6,472 bases of DNA, taken from positions 1 to 6,472 of the forward strand of contig WTGE01000127.1 in assembly GCA_011525445.1 (NCBI GenBank), read 5' to 3'. Shown piece after piece: positions 240-6,472 of the stretch (within the stretch, counting starts at the first letter, position 1; each line of letters starts with the position of its first letter). Below the pieces are notes generated by a model. That model saw nothing but the letters and a program-made list of their open reading frames with translations, had not been told where the DNA came from and did no database searches. This DNA comes from Synechococcus sp. CO36386bin_37. Lineage in GTDB: Bacteria > Cyanobacteriota > Cyanobacteriia > PCC-6307 > Cyanobiaceae. The position numbers were made by a program, and so were the translations under genes.

Positions 240-521
240 TTAGGCCAGCTGGCTAATGATTTTGACGCTGTCCTCGGGCCCATAATGCGCCACCCATTCG
301 CGCAGCCGGGCACTTTCTTCATCGGTGCGAGTACAGGCAAAGCCGTAGCGAGCACGCACCCGTTCGGATGCGGCGCTCAGGGCTTGCAAGCCTCTGGCCT
401 CCATCTGCGAGACCGTGAGGCAATCTCCAGGATTGAGATACTCATGAATCACGGTCGACGGGGAATACAAGGTGCTGCACTGCCCATCAGGCCATTGCAG
501 TTGAAAACAGACTTCCGGCAT
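240..521 (-). CDS. nitG: MSMEG_0570-family nitrogen starvation response protein (NitG)
   Basis: A 93-residue protein matching the small MSMEG_0570 family, a standing member of Nit1C clusters with no known activity. Recognition rests on the N-terminal strand and turn (FQLQWPDGQCSTLYSPS, residues 6-22), followed by a helical stretch with ALSAASERVRARYGFACT (residues 47-64), and on its place as last gene of the nit block. It has no signal peptide or membrane segment, so it should be cytoplasmic. Cysteines are at positions 5, 15, 34 and 63. The ATG lies 38 nt after the nitF stop, preceded by AGGGA with only about 3 nt spacing, so initiation may rely partly on ribosomes finishing nitF. The stop is TAA. 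The longer plus-strand frame over the same bases (204-566) shows no family resemblance. The family call is firm; the function is unknown. Confidence 0.88.
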   Translation of the reverse strand: MPEVCFQLQWPDGQCSTLYSPSTVIHEYLNPGDCLTVSQMEARGLQALSAASERVRARYGFACTRTDEESARLREWVAHYGPEDSVKIISQLA

Positions 522-559
522 TCATCCCTGTCGGCCCTGTTCAGCCTGCCGAGGCGGGG

Positions 560-1552
560 TCAATAGTTGCTGTCATCGTTGGCACAGCCAAAACCCGTGA
601 GGGTCAAGTTGGCATCCCAGATCGTTTCCATGCAGTCGTCGCGTCGTAGCAGCACTTGGCCATGCCCTACGCCGAAGCTGCCAATGCAGCAGCAGATCAG
701 TTCCGGTTGGTTCGTCAAGCGTTGCTTCAGCTCTGTCGAGCGGCTTGGGTCAACAGCTAGGAGGAAGCCAAAGCTTGGGAAACAGGTCAGCCAAGCGTGT
801 TCTGCAACGCCTTGAGGCCGTTCCACCGCATTGAGCTCAATGGTGAGAGCGCGTCCGCAGGCCTCCGCGAACATCACGGCAGTTCCAGTGATCCCACCCA
901 TGCTGATGTCTTTGGCAGCGTGGATGAGGCCTTCCGCGGCTAGCGATGGCAGCAGCTCGAGATGGGAGCGCAGCAGCTCTGCATTGGCATCACTAGCCGC
1001 ATCCCAAAAGGGGTAGTGGCGATAAAACGTTCCTCGTTGATTGACGAGTAACCACAGCTGATCGCCTGCGCGCGCGGAACGGGCCGAGAGAACCGGTCCG
1101 TTTGCAACTCCAAGCACGGCAACCGAGAGCGCCGAATAAGGACTCTGCTGATTGGAGTGGCCGCCGACGATGGGCACTCCAAAGCGTTGGCTCGCGCACT
1201 GCATGCCTTGCAACATCGCGATCTGCTGGTCTGCAGTTGCACTCCACACGCTGTTCACAACCGCAAGGGGGTGCCCCCCCATGGCAGCAATGTCGCTCAA
1301 GTTCACAACCACTGAACTCCAGCCTGCAAACCAGGGGTCTTCCTCCACGAGAGTGGGCTGCATCCCCTCACAGGCCAGCAAGAGTTGTCCGCTCTGCGCT
1401 GGCAGCAGTGCTGCATCGTCTCCGAGCATGCCAGCGTTGCCGAGTTCAGGGAACGGCAGATGATCCAACACCTGTGCAGCAGCTTGGATATCGCGCTTGG
1501 CCAGCAGACCACTCTGTTGGCGTAGCTGATCAGCCAAAACGTCGAGCTTCAT
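560..1552 (-). CDS. nitF: AIR synthase-like protein, Sll0787 family (NitF)
   Basis: A 330-residue member of the PurM/ThiL/SelD/HypE superfamily, whose enzymes use ATP to activate an oxygen or carboxamide group or transfer phosphate. Visible motifs, in order: the nucleotide/Mg loop GDDAA (44-48), NLSDIAAMGG (84-93), VGGHS (129-133), and in the C-terminal AIRS domain AKDISMGGITGT (213-224) and PSFGFLLAV (259-267). Length is close to PurM (about 345 residues), but the cluster and the divergent sequence argue that it is not the purine enzyme. The substrate is unknown. A CCC triplet lies at 287-289. The ATG overlaps the nitE stop as ATGA (1552-1549), with only a weak GAAG upstream, implying translational coupling. 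In Mycobacterium the corresponding NitE- and NitF-like regions are one polypeptide (MSMEG_0567), which supports a physical or functional partnership. Confidence 0.92.
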   Translation of the reverse strand: MKLDVLADQLRQQSGLLAKRDIQAAAQVLDHLPFPELGNAGMLGDDAALLPAQSGQLLLACEGMQPTLVEEDPWFAGWSSVVVNLSDIAAMGGHPLAVVNSVWSATADQQIAMLQGMQCASQRFGVPIVGGHSNQQSPYSALSVAVLGVANGPVLSARSARAGDQLWLLVNQRGTFYRHYPFWDAASDANAELLRSHLELLPSLAAEGLIHAAKDISMGGITGTAVMFAEACGRALTIELNAVERPQGVAEHAWLTCFPSFGFLLAVDPSRSTELKQRLTNQPELICCCIGSFGVGHGQVLLRRDDCMETIWDANLTLTGFGCANDDSNY

Positions 1553-2166
1553 GCCGAGATGGCTTCAGCGGGACGGCGCTCCGCTGACGCTGTGTAGTAG
1601 TTCAGGTCTGCCTGCATGAGGTGATGGCGGATGCCATGGATGTCCATCTCTTCAAGGGAACTCCAATGCAACCGCTGGAAAAATCGCACGTTTTGAATCT
1701 GCACTGCGGCCTGAAAGCATTGGCAGCCCCAGCCGTTGGCCGTCGTGACCGCTTTCCAGATCAATCCTTTGCCGATCTGGTTGTGGCTGCGGAATGACCG
1801 ATGGACGCCAAGCCGGCCACCGAACCAATGGTGTGGTTGGGTCTCCACAATCCTCACGACGCCAACGACATCGATGGGGCTGTTGCCGTGATGCAACGCA
1901 GCAATGGGATAAGCCCTTTGATCAAGCTCGTCGCGATCGGTGGATTGGAACACAAGCTGCTCAGTGCAGAAGATGCTTTGACGCAGTGACCAGTAGCTCC
2001 TCAGCAACGATTGGTTGTTGTGCAGCAGGTGGAACGAAAACCAATCAGAGCTGGCCGTCGGTGAAAGGCGGAAGTCTTCAGCCTCAATGCCAATGCCTCT
2101 GCGCACCGAGGGAGTAAAGGCACGCGGTGCAGAACTGATGCTGCTGCTGGGGTCCAGACAGATCAC
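1549..2166 (-). CDS. nitE: GNAT-type acyltransferase, MSMEG_0567/Sll0786 family (NitE)
   Basis: A 205-residue GCN5-related acyltransferase, expected to move an acyl group from acyl-CoA to an amine; the acceptor is unknown. The conserved core starts near residue 52 (SLLRSYWSLRQSIFCTEQ, 53-70). It includes STDRDELDQ (75-83), the strand VVGVVRI (100-106), GGRLGVH (116-122), the CoA pyrophosphate loop NQIGKG (129-134) and QNVRFFQRLHW (158-168), a typical GNAT end motif. The first residue of the usual Q/R-x-x-G-x-G/A loop is Asn here. The start is uncertain. The GTG at 2166, 5 nt after the nitD stop, has no Shine-Dalgarno, and the first 30 or so residues look unconserved. A second in-frame GTG at 2106 also lacks one. 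There is no in-frame ATG before the core. Its stop overlaps the nitF start. Confidence 0.9.
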   Translation of the reverse strand: MICLDPSSSISSAPRAFTPSVRRGIGIEAEDFRLSPTASSDWFSFHLLHNNQSLLRSYWSLRQSIFCTEQLVFQSTDRDELDQRAYPIAALHHGNSPIDVVGVVRIVETQPHHWFGGRLGVHRSFRSHNQIGKGLIWKAVTTANGWGCQCFQAAVQIQNVRFFQRLHWSSLEEMDIHGIRHHLMQADLNYYTASAERRPAEAISA

Positions 2167-2171
2167 GTTGA

Positions 2172-3263
2172 TTAGTCAGTTCGCTCAAACAGGGAAAGAG
2201 CCGAACAGGCTCCACATTTGGCGCATCCAGCCGACATGTTTTGAGAATGGAGATTGCCCTGCTTGAGCAACTCGGCAATTCCTTGGTAGATGTCCACCAT
2301 GAAATTGGTTGAGGGGCTCGGGTGGTGCTCTAACGGGGTGCCAGTAATTGGCACAAATGGCACCACGAAGGGGTAGACCCCCAGCTCAATAAGATGCCGG
2401 CTGCAATCCAGCAGTGCTTCACGGCTATCACCAAGGCCTGCCAACAAATAGGTCGACACTTCGCCACGACCAAAAATGGCCACGGCCTTGGCAAACGCGT
2501 CGTAATACCGCTCCAGGGTGAGTTCAGATTTGCCGGGCAGGATGCGCTTGCGCACCTCTGGCTCAACCACTTCAAGATGCATGCCCAGGCTGCTGATCCC
2601 TGCCTGTTTCATCCGCGCAAACCAGATCGGATCATCGGGTGGTTCGCATTGCGCCTGAATCGGCAGGTTGACGCGACGTTTGACAGCGATGGCCGTTTCC
2701 ACCATCAGCCGTGCTCCGCGGTCACTGCTGTTAGGAGTGCCTGTTGTCATCACCAGCTGTTGCACGCCATCAAGGCGCACCGCAGCTTCAGCCACCTCGG
2801 CCACCTGTTCTGGACTCTTGCGAGCCAACGTGCCTCCATCGTCTAACGACTGTTCAATCGCGCAGAACTGGCAAGACGATGCGCGATCACGGAATCGGAT
2901 GCAGGTCTGTTGCAGCGTGGTGGCGAGGACATCGCGGCTGTGGAGCAAAGCGATTGAGCGGTAGGGGATCCCATCGGCTGTTCTGAGCCCGTAAAAAGCA
3001 GGCTCGTCGCTTGTGCGAACAGTGGCTGTCTTGGCCTGCTGCATGCCTGCAATGGCCAGACCATCACGGGTTGATTCCAGGCTGTAGGGAGATTCCGCCG
3101 AGGCGTTGTTGTGAATGGGAACCATCACCGTTGTCCCATCTAGGTGCAAGGCGAGGTGGTCCGAGGGGCCGGCACCACCGCGTCGTCCTCGGTTGCCTGG
3201 AATGGCTTTGCCGCGCACCCCTTTGACCTGCAATTCAGTGACCAGTCGTCCCAGTTCAGACAT
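2172..3263 (-). CDS. nitD: Radical SAM protein, MSMEG_0568 family (NitD)
   Basis: A 363-residue radical SAM enzyme of the family found in Nit1C clusters. Its reaction is unknown; resemblance to cofactor-biosynthesis radical SAM enzymes has been noted for the family. The likely cluster-binding cysteines are C121, C131 and C134 ([15 protein letters not shown]), giving CX9CX2C in place of the usual CX3CX2C. Downstream lie TTGTPN (173-178, a GGE-like SAM-binding strand), [13 protein letters not shown] (226-238) and LLAGLGDS (273-280). The C-terminus carries CAKCGAC (347-353), a CX2CX2C cluster that could hold an auxiliary iron-sulfur cluster or a metal. The N-terminal 110 residues precede the barrel and contain a basic glycine-rich stretch (residues 18-32). 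The ATG overlaps the end of nitC by 8 nt and has the strongest Shine-Dalgarno in the window. The stop is TAA, with nitE starting 5 nt later. Confidence 0.94.
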
Positions 3264-4251
3264 GGTTGAGCTCCTCCAGGCTGACTTCAGAAGCGCCAGC
3301 AGGTTCAGTAGCGATGGAGTCTGCTGATAGCTCCTGCATCAGCACCGCAGGGGAGCGATTGATTCGTAGTGACAGCAGCTCAGGTCGGCTGTAGTGCCCA
3401 GCGCTGTCCATCATTCGCTTGCGCTTGGTGATCAGTGCCATGTCGAGTTCAGCGATCGCCAGGCCTTCCCCATCGGGGAGCGGGCCGGCAAGGTATTTGC
3501 CTTCAGGGCTGATTACTGCGGTGTGACAGCCCCCTTGAAACGCTTTGTGGAGCGTCGTGTCAGCCGTGATCGACCCATAGTCTTCGGGGTCAAGCCAGCC
3601 GGTTGAGCAGATCACAAAACATCCCGCTTCCAAGGCGTGATGCCGCATGGTGACTGCGGTTTGCTCAGTGAAGATCGGCCCGACGAGCGATCCGGGGAAC
3701 TGGGCGCAATGGATCTCTTCTGCCTGCGCGATGAGGGCGAATCGAGCCAATGGGTTGTAGTGCTCCCAGCAGGCCAAAGCACCGATACGACCTACTGGGG
3801 TTGGCACCACCTTGAGGCCAGCTCCATCGCCTTGCCCCCACACCATTCGTTCGTGATAAGTGGGTGTGATCTTGCGCCGCTTGAGAACCAGCTCGCCACT
3901 GCTACTGAAGAGCAGCTGCGTGTTGTAGAGCGTGCCTCCATCTCGCTCATTGACTCCCAACAGCACCTGCATGCCGTATTGACGCGCTGCCGCAGCGACA
4001 GCTTTGGTGGTTGGACCCGGAACAACGACCGCCTGCTCGTAGAGAGCGAGGTGGGGCTTGCCCATGCGCACCGGCGGCTCGACGAACGAGAAGTAGGGGT
4101 AGTACGGCAGAAACGTTTCCGGAAAAACGATCAACTCCACCCCCTCGGCGGCTGCTTGAGCGATCGAATCGAGCACTTTCTGCAGTGATCCATCCAGGCT
4201 GAACAGCACTGGACGGATCTGAGCAGCAGCAACTTTGACTGTGGTCACCAT
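3256..4251 (-). CDS. nitC: Nitrilase, Nit1C type (NitC)
   Basis: A 331-residue cytoplasmic nitrilase (C-N hydrolase superfamily, branch 1), converting a nitrile to a carboxylate plus ammonia. All catalytic residues are present: Glu45 in [13 protein letters not shown] (42-54), Lys127 in [21 protein letters not shown] (residues 123-143, with a second glutamate at 134), and Cys161 in [11 protein letters not shown] (158-168). The C-terminal [10 protein letters not shown] (286-295) is the usual nitrilase ending, followed by a tail of about 30 residues. The Synechocystis homologue (sll0784) was characterised as a nitrilase acting on dinitriles, and the Pseudomonas nitC gene is tied to cyanide assimilation; the physiological substrate here is not known. 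The ATG is 18 nt after the nitB stop, with a weak GAGAAG-type ribosome site. The 3' end overlaps nitD and carries its ribosome binding site. Confidence 0.96.
3271..3277 (-). promoter_or_regulatory. Strong Shine-Dalgarno for nitD inside nitC
   Basis: The minus strand reads GGAGGAG followed by 7 nt and the nitD ATG at 3263-3261. It lies within the last codons of nitC (the LEEL stretch). The near-perfect match and spacing fix the nitD start and suggest reinitiation or strong independent loading at the nitC-nitD junction. Confidence 0.85.
3452..3459. repeat. Single HIP1 octamer (GCGATCGC)
   Basis: One exact copy of the cyanobacterial highly iterated palindrome lies inside nitC. A near copy, GCGATCGA, lies around 4156-4163. 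One copy in 6.5 kb is weak support for a cyanobacterial origin and does not show the dense HIP1 spacing seen in many freshwater strains. Confidence 0.6.
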
Positions 4252-4269
4252 GACGTCTTCTCTGGTGAA

Positions 4270-4752
4270 TCAGAGCGTCCAGGTGTCGAGGATGAAAGCG
4301 CCGTCCTTGCGATGCATCAAAACAATGTCGAGAACATCGAGTGGATTTACCGGGGTGATGCCAGGCATCAATGCCTTCTCCCCATGTCCATAGAGCGCCT
4401 GGAGAGCAAACCGGCAGGCATACACCTTGCCCCCTTGATCCATGAACTTTTGAAGCCGGGCATTGAAGTTCAGGTGCCCATCAAAAGCAGCGTCGCCAAG
4501 TTTGGGAAAACCACGCATCACTCCGAGAGTGACACCAGGTCCATACAGCAGGATTGAGGTTTCAAAGCCTTTATTGATCAATCGGCTGGCCTGCAGCAGG
4601 TTGACCAAACCAATCGAACCTTCGAATGCGACGGTATGGAATGTTACGAGTGCCTTTTCACCAGGCTCAGCTTTTACATCAGGGAAAACCTTCTCCTCAT
4701 AGTCAACAAGAAAGTCTCCTGGTTGGTTAGAGGGGCGATCAACAACAGGCAT
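4270..4752 (-). CDS. nitB: MSMEG_0572/Sll0783-family nitrogen starvation response protein, DsrE-like (NitB)
   Basis: A 160-residue soluble protein, first gene of the minus-strand nit operon. It resembles DsrE/DsrF/TusD-like small proteins. A beta strand (ALVTFHTV, 34-41) leads to a helix, then [10 protein letters not shown] (65-74) and a conserved C-terminal block, [22 protein letters not shown] (107-128), then [17 protein letters not shown] (129-145). Cys113 is the only cysteine and sits where DsrE-like sulfur carriers keep their reactive cysteine; a persulfide or thiol role is possible but unproven. The Synechocystis homologue sll0783 is strongly induced on nitrogen starvation, and its loss lowers polyhydroxybutyrate. 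The ATG at 4752 is preceded by TGAGGA with 8 nt spacing. The stop is TGA, with nitC following 18 nt later. Confidence 0.93.
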
Positions 4753-4760
4753 AGAGAGAA

Positions 4761-4766
4761 TCCTCA
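4761..4766 (-). promoter_or_regulatory. Shine-Dalgarno for nitB
   Basis: TGAGGA on the minus strand, 8 nt before the nitB ATG at 4752-4750. It supports this start for the first gene of the operon. Confidence 0.7.
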
Positions 4767-4792
4767 GCTACGAAAGCCTGGCCCTTTGATGA

Positions 4793-4862
4793 GGATAAAA
4801 AATGTTGTTTTTGTCACCAAATCTGGCTCCTTAAGGAAAGGATCGGCCCCTGATTTTTATCC
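4793..4862. repeat. Inverted repeat GGATAAAAA / TTTTTATCC flanking a palindrome
   Basis: GGATAAAAA (4793-4801) and its exact reverse complement TTTTTATCC (4854-4862) face each other across 52 nt. Between them is the perfect 10-bp palindrome TCCTTAAGGA (4828-4837). Each transcription direction therefore meets the same TTTTTATCC box, 40 nt upstream of nitB and 60 nt upstream of nitH. It could be a paired regulator site or matching promoter elements; chance is possible in A/T-rich sequence. Confidence 0.45.
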
Positions 4863-4922
4863 GGCTCGCTGGAATTAATCTCCCTTTATAGAATTGAAAT
4901 CCACTTGCGCCTTGATTGCTCA

Positions 4923-6233
4923 ATGGCACCCGCTGTGGAAAGAACTTCGGCTGTGATTTCGCATCACTCGGTGGTGGTGATTGGTGCTGGCCAAGCAGGT
5001 CTCTCAGTGGCATATGCCCTGCAACAGCGAGGCATACGGCCATTGGTATTGGAAAAAAATCGCATTGGATACGCCTGGGATCAGCAGCGATGGGATTCCT
5101 TCTGCCTGGTAACGCCGAACTGGCAGTGCTGTTTGCCAGATTTTCCCTACGACGGTCAAGAGCCAGAAGGGTTCATGGACAAGGCCTCAGTGGTGGAGTT
5201 TCTGCAACGGTTTGCTCGCCATGCCAACGGCGATGTCCGTGAAGGCGTTGCCGTTCAACGGCTGATGTCTCATGGAAATGGCTATCGCCTGATCACAAGT
5301 GAGGGAGAGCTGGAGGCGGAACAGGTGGTTGTAGCCACTGGTAGTTATCACGTGCCTCGCCGGCATCCATTGGCCGAACGCCTACCCCAATCTCTCTTGC
5401 AACTTGATGCCCGGGACTACCGAAATCCTGATGCCCTGCCCGCCGGACCTGTTTTGGTTGTTGGAAGTGGACAGTCGGGAAGCCAAATTGCTGAGGACTT
5501 GTTTTTAGCGGGCCGGACGGTCCATCTCAGCGTCGGTAGCGCTCCCCGTTCCCCGCGCCGCTATCGCGGCCGTGATGTTGTCGATTGGCTCGATCAAATG
5601 GGCTATTACGCGATGCCCATCAGTGATCACGCTGATCCGCGCAGCGTACGGGCTAAGACCAATCACTATCTCACCGGTCGTGATGGCGGCCGTGAAATTG
5701 ATTTGCGTCAACGAGCATTGGAAGGCATGGATCTGCATGGACGTCTGGCATCCATCAGTTCAGATCACATTGGTTTTGCAGATGACCTTGGCGGCAATCT
5801 CGACCAGGCTGACGCCGTTTATTGCCGGATTCGCAGCAGCATCGACAGTTGGATTCAACAGCAGGGCATAGATGCTCCGCTTGAGCCTGCTTACTCACCG
5901 AAGTGGCAACCCTCGCCAGCCCCAGATGCCGGCATTGCATTGACCCCTGATGCACTGGGATCGGTCATTTGGTGTACGGGTTATCGCAGTGATTTCAGCT
6001 GGATTGATGTGCCGGTCTTTGATGGATCTGGCCAACCGGCCCATGACCGCGGTGTCACCCAAAGCACTGGGCTGTATTTCCTGGGTTTGCCATGGCTGCA
6101 TACCTGGGGTTCGGGCCGGTTTTGTGGCATCAAAGACGATGCCAACTACCTCGCTCATCTGATTAGCCATCGTCTACAGCGGCGCGATGCCAGCCAGGAA
6201 CGCTTGGAATGCACGGCCATTCTGGGATCCTGA
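4923..6233 (+). CDS. nitH: Flavin-dependent oxidoreductase, MSMEG_0569 family (NitH)
   Basis: A 436-residue FAD enzyme of the flavin monooxygenase-like group. The FAD fold has VVVIGAGQAGLSVA (17-30) ending at Glu44 (VLEK), and a second dinucleotide fold, VLVVGSGQSGSQIAEDL (177-193), should bind NAD(P)H. VVVATG (135-140) and VIWCTGY (348-354) are the ATG-type motifs linking the domains. Arginines at 209, 212, 213 and 215 could contact the NADPH phosphate. There is no signal peptide. The predicted role is NAD(P)H-dependent oxidation of an unknown substrate, possibly feeding the nitrilase pathway. I prefer the ATG at 4923; an in-frame TTG at 4905 would add six residues. Neither has a Shine-Dalgarno, and an in-frame stop lies at 4851. 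The gene ends in tandem stops (TGA TAA). It is divergent from nitB, so both units may share control. Confidence 0.93.
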   Translation: MAPAVERTSAVISHHSVVVIGAGQAGLSVAYALQQRGIRPLVLEKNRIGYAWDQQRWDSFCLVTPNWQCCLPDFPYDGQEPEGFMDKASVVEFLQRFARHANGDVREGVAVQRLMSHGNGYRLITSEGELEAEQVVVATGSYHVPRRHPLAERLPQSLLQLDARDYRNPDALPAGPVLVVGSGQSGSQIAEDLFLAGRTVHLSVGSAPRSPRRYRGRDVVDWLDQMGYYAMPISDHADPRSVRAKTNHYLTGRDGGREIDLRQRALEGMDLHGRLASISSDHIGFADDLGGNLDQADAVYCRIRSSIDSWIQQQGIDAPLEPAYSPKWQPSPAPDAGIALTPDALGSVIWCTGYRSDFSWIDVPVFDGSGQPAHDRGVTQSTGLYFLGLPWLHTWGSGRFCGIKDDANYLAHLISHRLQRRDASQERLECTAILGS

Positions 6234-6320: not shown

Positions 6321-6472
6321 TTACCGCCCTTCGCAGTGCTCCACGGCTTTGAGGTAATTCAGGTGGCCGGGGGTGGTGCCGCCCTGTGGGTTCACCGCCA
6401 CACGCATCTGAATCTGTTGATCAATGCAACGGTTGTAGCGGTGGGTTTTGACCGCCTGGGGAATTAAGAGCA
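6321..6472 (-). CDS. Unknown protein, C-terminal part (truncated by the window edge)
   Basis: The minus strand has an open frame from the window edge to a TAA at 6323-6321, giving the last 49 residues of a protein I do not recognise. It is hydrophilic and ends in NYLKAVEHCEGR, with HRYNRCIDQQIQMRVAVNPQ (residues 10-29 of the visible part) before it. Coding evidence: by my count 36 of 49 third positions are G or C, the composition is that of a soluble protein, and it ends cleanly 87 nt from the nitH stop in a normal convergent layout. A plus-strand frame over the same bases (6285-6467) opens with TTG and reads as hydrophobic and low-complexity, so I prefer the minus strand. The start and most of the protein may lie beyond the window. 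Confidence 0.55.
   Translation of the reverse strand, partial: LLIPQAVKTHRYNRCIDQQIQMRVAVNPQGGTTPGHLNYLKAVEHCEGR

Follow-up and report, generated by a model that had tools for sequence, protein, structure and literature searches.

A complete Nit1C gene cluster in a Synechococcus contig, with a probable role in emergency nitrogen acquisition

The Nit1C cluster and its proteins

We analysed a stretch of 6,472 nucleotides (nt) of Synechococcus sp. CO36386bin_37 (contig WTGE01000127.1; the whole stretch is hereafter called the window) and found a complete Nit1C cluster in the cyanobacterial arrangement, with nitBCDEFG on the minus strand and nitH divergent from them. We consider it probable, at roughly 60%, that this operon serves emergency nitrogen acquisition and that its pathway ends in nitrile hydrolysis by the nitrilase NitC. 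The cluster is not new, since Nit1C is already known in marine picocyanobacteria, and its content and arrangement match the published Nit1C of marine Synechococcus. We add, on a modest scale, a promoter architecture upstream of nitB and the finding that DUF3050 and DUF1348 genes accompany the cluster in some relatives; both make its pathway easier to test. According to Dore et al. 2023, the cluster is widespread in abundant ocean phototrophs. The seven genes are as follows:

240 to 521, minus strand: nitG, MSMEG_0570 family, 93 amino acids, conserved C63
560 to 1552, minus strand: nitF, Sll0787-type AIR-synthase-like ATP-binding enzyme, 330 amino acids, 4-nt overlap with nitE
1549 to 2166, minus strand: nitE, MSMEG_0567/Sll0786 GNAT acetyltransferase, 205 amino acids, GTG start
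2172 to 3263, minus strand: nitD, MSMEG_0568 radical SAM protein, 363 amino acids, 8-nt overlap with nitC
3256 to 4251, minus strand: nitC, Nit6803-family nitrilase, 331 amino acids, E45/K127/C161
4270 to 4752, minus strand: nitB, MSMEG_0572/Sll0783 family, 160 amino acids, predicted DsrE/YchN fold, conserved C113
4905 to 6233, plus strand: nitH, MSMEG_0569 flavin-dependent oxidoreductase, divergent from nitB

All seven genes are open and lie within positions 240 to 6233. The genes nitB, nitC, nitD, nitE, nitF and nitG follow one another in that order, tightly packed and co-directional, the gaps between them being short or absent. The nitH frame begins with TTG at 4905, and the alternative ATG at 4923 is more likely to be the start. 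The proteins were compared with the NCBIfam models of the Nit1C families, and each exceeded its curated cut-off: NitB scored 270 bits (TIGR04044, cut-off 110), NitC 566 bits (TIGR04048, cut-off 503), NitD 568 bits (TIGR04043, cut-off 304), NitE 207 bits (TIGR04045, cut-off 68), NitF 418 bits (TIGR04049, cut-off 321), NitG 109.6 bits (TIGR04042, cut-off 79.9) and NitH 636 bits (TIGR04046, cut-off 498). These scores exclude chance matches. The catalytic and metal-binding residues are intact in the window and conserved in at least 97% of the aligned relatives. The original prediction of seven intact nitB-H families at 240 to 6233, belonging to the MSMEG_0567-0572/Sll0783-0787 families, thus agrees with the family search. 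It had also stated that the glycosyltransferase accompanying the set in some bacteria is absent from the window and that the host is likely a unicellular cyanobacterium, and both statements were supported. The gap between nitF and nitG is only 38 nt (522 to 559), so that there is no space for a glycosyltransferase gene between them; NitG is 99% identical to its nearest named record, a protein cluster with Synechococcus sp. MIT S9452 as its source name, and the nearest named genome loci are those of Synechococcus, with NitD identities of 79%, 78% and 76% (loci L001, L002 and L066). The closest NitF match in 399 genomes of the order had 69% identity.

The NitC triad Glu-Lys-Cys corresponds to E45, K127 and C161, conserved in at least 97% of 78 sequences, and NitC matched the solved nitrilase 3wuy, which we take to be Synechocystis Nit6803, with a phmmer E-value of 1.8e-145. 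By this triad and this match, NitC is a branch 1 nitrilase of the Nit6803 family, and nitrile hydrolysis is its predicted reaction. NitD carries the cysteine motifs C121/C131/C134 (CX9CX2C) and, near its C-terminus, C347/C350/C353 (CX2CX2C), and NitF, which resembles ATP-binding enzymes of the ThiL/SelD type, carries D45-D46; these residues, as well as NitB C113 and NitG C63, are conserved in at least 97% of relatives. C113 is the one conserved cysteine of NitB and lies at the end of a strand. The structural model of NitB, with a mean predicted local distance difference test (pLDDT) score of only 67.7, matched solved DsrE-family structures, so that a DsrE/YchN fold is predicted, in line with earlier proposals for this family (Podar et al. 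2005; Yang et al. 2018). The NitG model was confident (pLDDT 92.3), yet a fold search of the PDB gave no match. A HypE-like cyano-transfer activity was also considered for NitF. In HypE-like nitrile-forming AIRS enzymes, a conserved C-terminal cysteine bears the carbamoyl or cyano group. The C-terminal Cys323 of the window is not conserved among 76 NitF sequences (present in L145, L001, L002, L066 and L004; absent in L003, L013, L008 and L025), and because NitF has no conserved C-terminal cysteine, this candidate activity was not supported.

We compared the distribution of NitC, NitD, NitF and NitH in 200 genomes of the order, whose completeness is unstated; the comparison covered these four of the seven families. 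NitD was above its cut-off in 49 of 200 genomes (81 at a looser E-value of 0.001), and NitC, NitF and NitH were each above theirs in 49. The four genome sets were identical, with 50 copies of each gene and one genome holding two. These results indicate that the nitrilase is not an add-on and that the set was retained or lost as a unit in this sample. That the four counted families are inherited all or nothing makes the question of the pathway more testable.

Among 80 loci of named genomes searched with tblastn, 62 contained all seven genes, and the other 18 missed at least one, mostly at contig ends. In L058 and L067, nitG was not found by tblastn, and the DNA continues past nitF; in L068, tblastn found no nitH in the 8.4 kb before nitB. 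The divergent, window-like position of nitH was seen in 60 of the 80 loci. It is last and co-directional in five gammaproteobacterial loci (L074, L075, L077, L078 and L079), and first and co-directional in L067 and L069. In three loci of other cyanobacteria (L071, L072 and L073), nitF and nitG lie about 1.1-1.3 kb apart, which would leave room for the glycosyltransferase of other lineages; this variant of Nit1C has been described in Burkholderia and Rubrivivax (Podar et al. 2005). Two Nit1C clusters occur in one strain (L010 and L047, Synechococcus sp. CS-1325; genome G133).

Comparison with known systems was made by their published descriptions. The Nit1C clusters of Synechococcus sp. WH8102 and Synechocystis PCC 6803 (sll0783-0787, ssl1464), strains different from that of the window, are described by Podar et al. 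2005 with the same seven families, the same order and a flavoprotein gene on the opposite strand at the start. Pro-eCAG_006 and Syn-eCAG_002 of Dore et al. 2023 comprise the same seven genes, nitHBCDEFG, in marine strains of Synechococcus and Prochlorococcus, with no difference in content seen in that description. The nit1C cluster of Pseudomonas oleovorans/pseudoalcaligenes CECT 5344, tied to growth on cyanide, shares the nitBCDEFGH families; its nitA, encoding a sigma-54 activator, is divergent and its nitH is last and co-directional, whereas the window is without nitA and has a divergent nitH. The gpr cluster of Mycobacterium smegmatis (MSMEG_0565-0572) is a homologous set that is controlled by nitrogen starvation, through GlnR, but it is described with eight open reading frames, another regulator and a role in peroxide resistance.

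Promoter architecture upstream of nitB

Two elements upstream of nitB form a candidate promoter:

4804 to 4817, minus strand: GT-N10-AC box GTGACAAAAACAAC, located at -65 relative to nitB; candidate operator for NtcA, weak in this strain
4775 to 4780, minus strand: -10-like CAGGCT, 23 nt past the box and thereby within the conserved spacing of 22-23 nt

We dereplicated 72 usable upstream regions to 33 and used the 27 picocyanobacterial ones, the window included, as the promoter set; six non-picocyanobacterial regions (L067, L068, L069, L073, L074 and L075) were left out. A GT-N10-AC box starting between -80 and -60 of nitB was present in all 27 loci, whereas 500 shuffles gave 1.55 on average and never more than 6. 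Dyads in the same interval were counted as a control for shared ancestry, and GT-N10-AC ranked first of 3328 (spacings 4 to 16), with the runner-up in 22 of 27 loci. In NtcA-activated promoters, a -10 element lies about 22-23 nt after the box. A NAN3T hexamer was found 22-23 nt past the box in 27 of 27 loci (median of 2 at other offsets). We also built an NtcA matrix from 10 of 13 urtA, glnA and amt boxes of related genomes, excluding two duplicates and the sole amt box. With the best site taken anywhere in the region, 22 of the 27 loci matched this matrix at p ≤0.05; L002, L008, L032, L058 and the window failed. A second GT-N10-AC box at -150 to -101 was present in 24 of the 27 loci (3.7 by chance), the others being the window, L052 and L057; to judge from its orientation, this box may serve nitH. 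Both boxes were also found in the six closest further genomes. The promoter architecture of nitB resembles that of an NtcA promoter, in a weak copy in this strain, and predicts control by nitrogen starvation without a dedicated regulator. Titles and abstract openings of the literature on NtcA together with nitrilase or sll0783 yielded no published account of NtcA at this promoter, although one may exist elsewhere.

The original prediction had pointed to the missing regulator. Its factual part held, as no NitA-like sigma-54 activator gene lies in the window, but the absence is not remarkable. None of 25 related genomes, several of them small single-cell or metagenome assemblies, showed the Sigma54_activat domain at E 1e-20, and a control search detected it in 4 of 14 well-known genomes. 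Because no such activator was found in these 25 genomes and an NtcA-like promoter architecture is present, the lack of a regulator gene is as would be expected here.

Proposed role and alternative explanations

The proposed role in nitrogen acquisition would operate as follows. Under nitrogen starvation, NtcA with 2-oxoglutarate would probably bind the box at 4804 to 4817 and drive nitBCDEFG. NitH (flavin monooxygenase-like), NitD (radical SAM), NitE (acyl transfer) and NitF (ATP-dependent activation) may then convert a nitrile- or cyanide-derived compound to a form acceptable to NitC, possibly assisted by the cysteine proteins NitB, with its DsrE-like fold, and NitG. The Glu-Lys-Cys triad of NitC would hydrolyse the C-N triple bond to a carboxylate and ammonium, a chemistry known for the family, and the ammonium would then be assimilated. 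The nitrogen-scavenging reading had been put forward in the original prediction, and it is supported by the promoter evidence given above and by published reports from Pseudomonas, Synechocystis and Mycobacterium. In these reports, Pseudomonas requires the Nit1C cluster for growth on cyanide, the Synechocystis operon is repressed by ammonium, and the M. smegmatis cluster is induced more than 500-fold in a GlnR-dependent manner. The marine distribution of Nit1C is given as warm, low-nitrogen waters (Dore et al. 2023).

Several observations weigh against this reading. To our knowledge, no reaction is known for six of the seven proteins (all but NitC), and no transporter gene lies in the window. 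The interval from -80 to -60 and the NAN3T hexamer were picked after viewing the sequences, and TAN3T, the usual -10 element, occurred 22-23 nt past the box in 0 of 27 loci, the canonical first T being absent. The box of the window fits 4 of 6 positions of the NtcA consensus, GTAN8TAC (PMC3898017), and reached only 1.1 bits with the urtA/glnA matrix (p 0.79, 100 shuffles); the distal box is lacking in this strain. None of the six non-picocyanobacterial regions has GT-N10-AC between -80 and -60. The control boxes themselves were patchy, with a box and a -10 element upstream of 7 of 17 urtA, 5 of 16 glnA and 1 of 22 amt genes (of 20 urtA loci, three were left out for short upstream DNA, leaving 17; of 22 glnA loci, six scored below the family cut-off, leaving 16). 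In addition, the reported phenotypes of Synechocystis sll0783 mutants, which concern polyhydroxybutyrate (PHB) and NADPH, and the peroxide resistance conferred by the M. smegmatis cluster are not obviously ones of nitrogen acquisition, and they leave a redox role open.

Redox homeostasis or stress tolerance could accordingly be the main function, with NitB, NitH and their partners maintaining the NADPH pool under nitrogen starvation and nitrile hydrolysis being secondary. Loss of sll0783 is reported to alter the NADPH-linked accumulation of PHB, the eight-gene homologous cluster of M. smegmatis to restore peroxide resistance, and the predicted DsrE-like fold of NitB is of a redox or sulfur-relay type. 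We regard this explanation as unlikely: a redox role needs no nitrilase, yet the nitrilase keeps its triad and accompanies NitD in each of the 49 genomes, peroxide is described as not inducing the M. smegmatis operon, and Pseudomonas depends on the cluster when it grows on cyanide. Dore et al. 2023 and Podar et al. 2005 name a further possible function, the detoxification of cyanide, nitriles or defence compounds instead of nitrogen supply, but the reported ammonium repression and nitrogen-starvation control are unexpected for such a system, and we hold it to be very improbable.

The cluster might instead, as the original prediction also allowed, make and turn over an internal nitrile metabolite, so that NitC would end a biosynthetic or salvage route rather than scavenge external nitriles. 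The many uncommon enzyme types for a single hydrolysis and the window's lack of a transporter fit this explanation, and so does the distribution of DUF3050, a family predicted to resemble heme oxygenase and to carry a di-iron site (PMC4520260). Of the 200 genomes of the order, 16 have DUF3050, and all 16 belong to the 49 with Nit1C; the counts and their Fisher values are uncorrected for kinship. The nitrogen-starvation or ammonium control reported in three phyla and the distribution in low-nitrogen waters favour scavenging, and we consider an internal nitrile an unlikely alternative. In another reading, to which we give little credence, the picocyanobacterial Nit1C is the central part of a larger pathway driven by NtcA, with the predicted di-iron enzyme DUF3050 and a DUF1348 protein as members. 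This pathway would oxidatively degrade a nitrogen-rich natural compound and make its nitrile in situ. The nitrilase would then only release ammonia at the end, and the use of cyanide would be a side activity.

Accompanying and neighbouring genes

The genes behind nitG were inspected in relatives. DUF1348 and DUF3050 genes lie directly behind nitG in nine loci (L001, L002, L004, L017, L043, L148, L151, L152 and L153). Anywhere in the available DNA of the 80 named loci, a DUF1348 match was found in 11 and a DUF3050 match in 6; in L066, the DUF1348 match covers only 53 codons. In the 200 genomes, DUF1348 was present in 43, and 35 of these have Nit1C, again without correction for kinship. DUF3050 was not seen in the window. 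The structure of a DUF3050 protein has been solved (9vwb, match E-value 7e-45). A figure legend of Panwar et al. 2022 describes DUF3050 and ntf2 genes sharing a contig with a Nit1C cluster. DUF3050 may be an extra Nit1C component in relatives, and the association of the two families suggests two further candidate parts of the pathway.

Within about 5 kb of nitG, three loci (L149:527-4220, L150:561-4245 and L151:719-4364) carry a TauABC-like ABC transporter together with a Rieske protein. A similar transporter and Rieske pair accompanies a guanidine cluster in the description of Dore et al., and the three loci possibly hold two organic-nitrogen clusters side by side.

Two further frames are cut by the ends of the window. 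On the right, a 49-codon open frame on the minus strand (about 6324 to 6470) enters from the end; it had no relative among the matches listed for the loci searched. On the left, the gene next to nitG is a P-loop gene on the minus strand (1 to 122), which begins about 120 nt past nitG on the same strand and exits the end of the window. Its Prochlorococcus homologue (L008:18235-19026) gave a borderline match to a CobW C-terminal domain, scored at 22.6 bits against a 22-bit cut-off, and sits about 5 kb beyond nitG.

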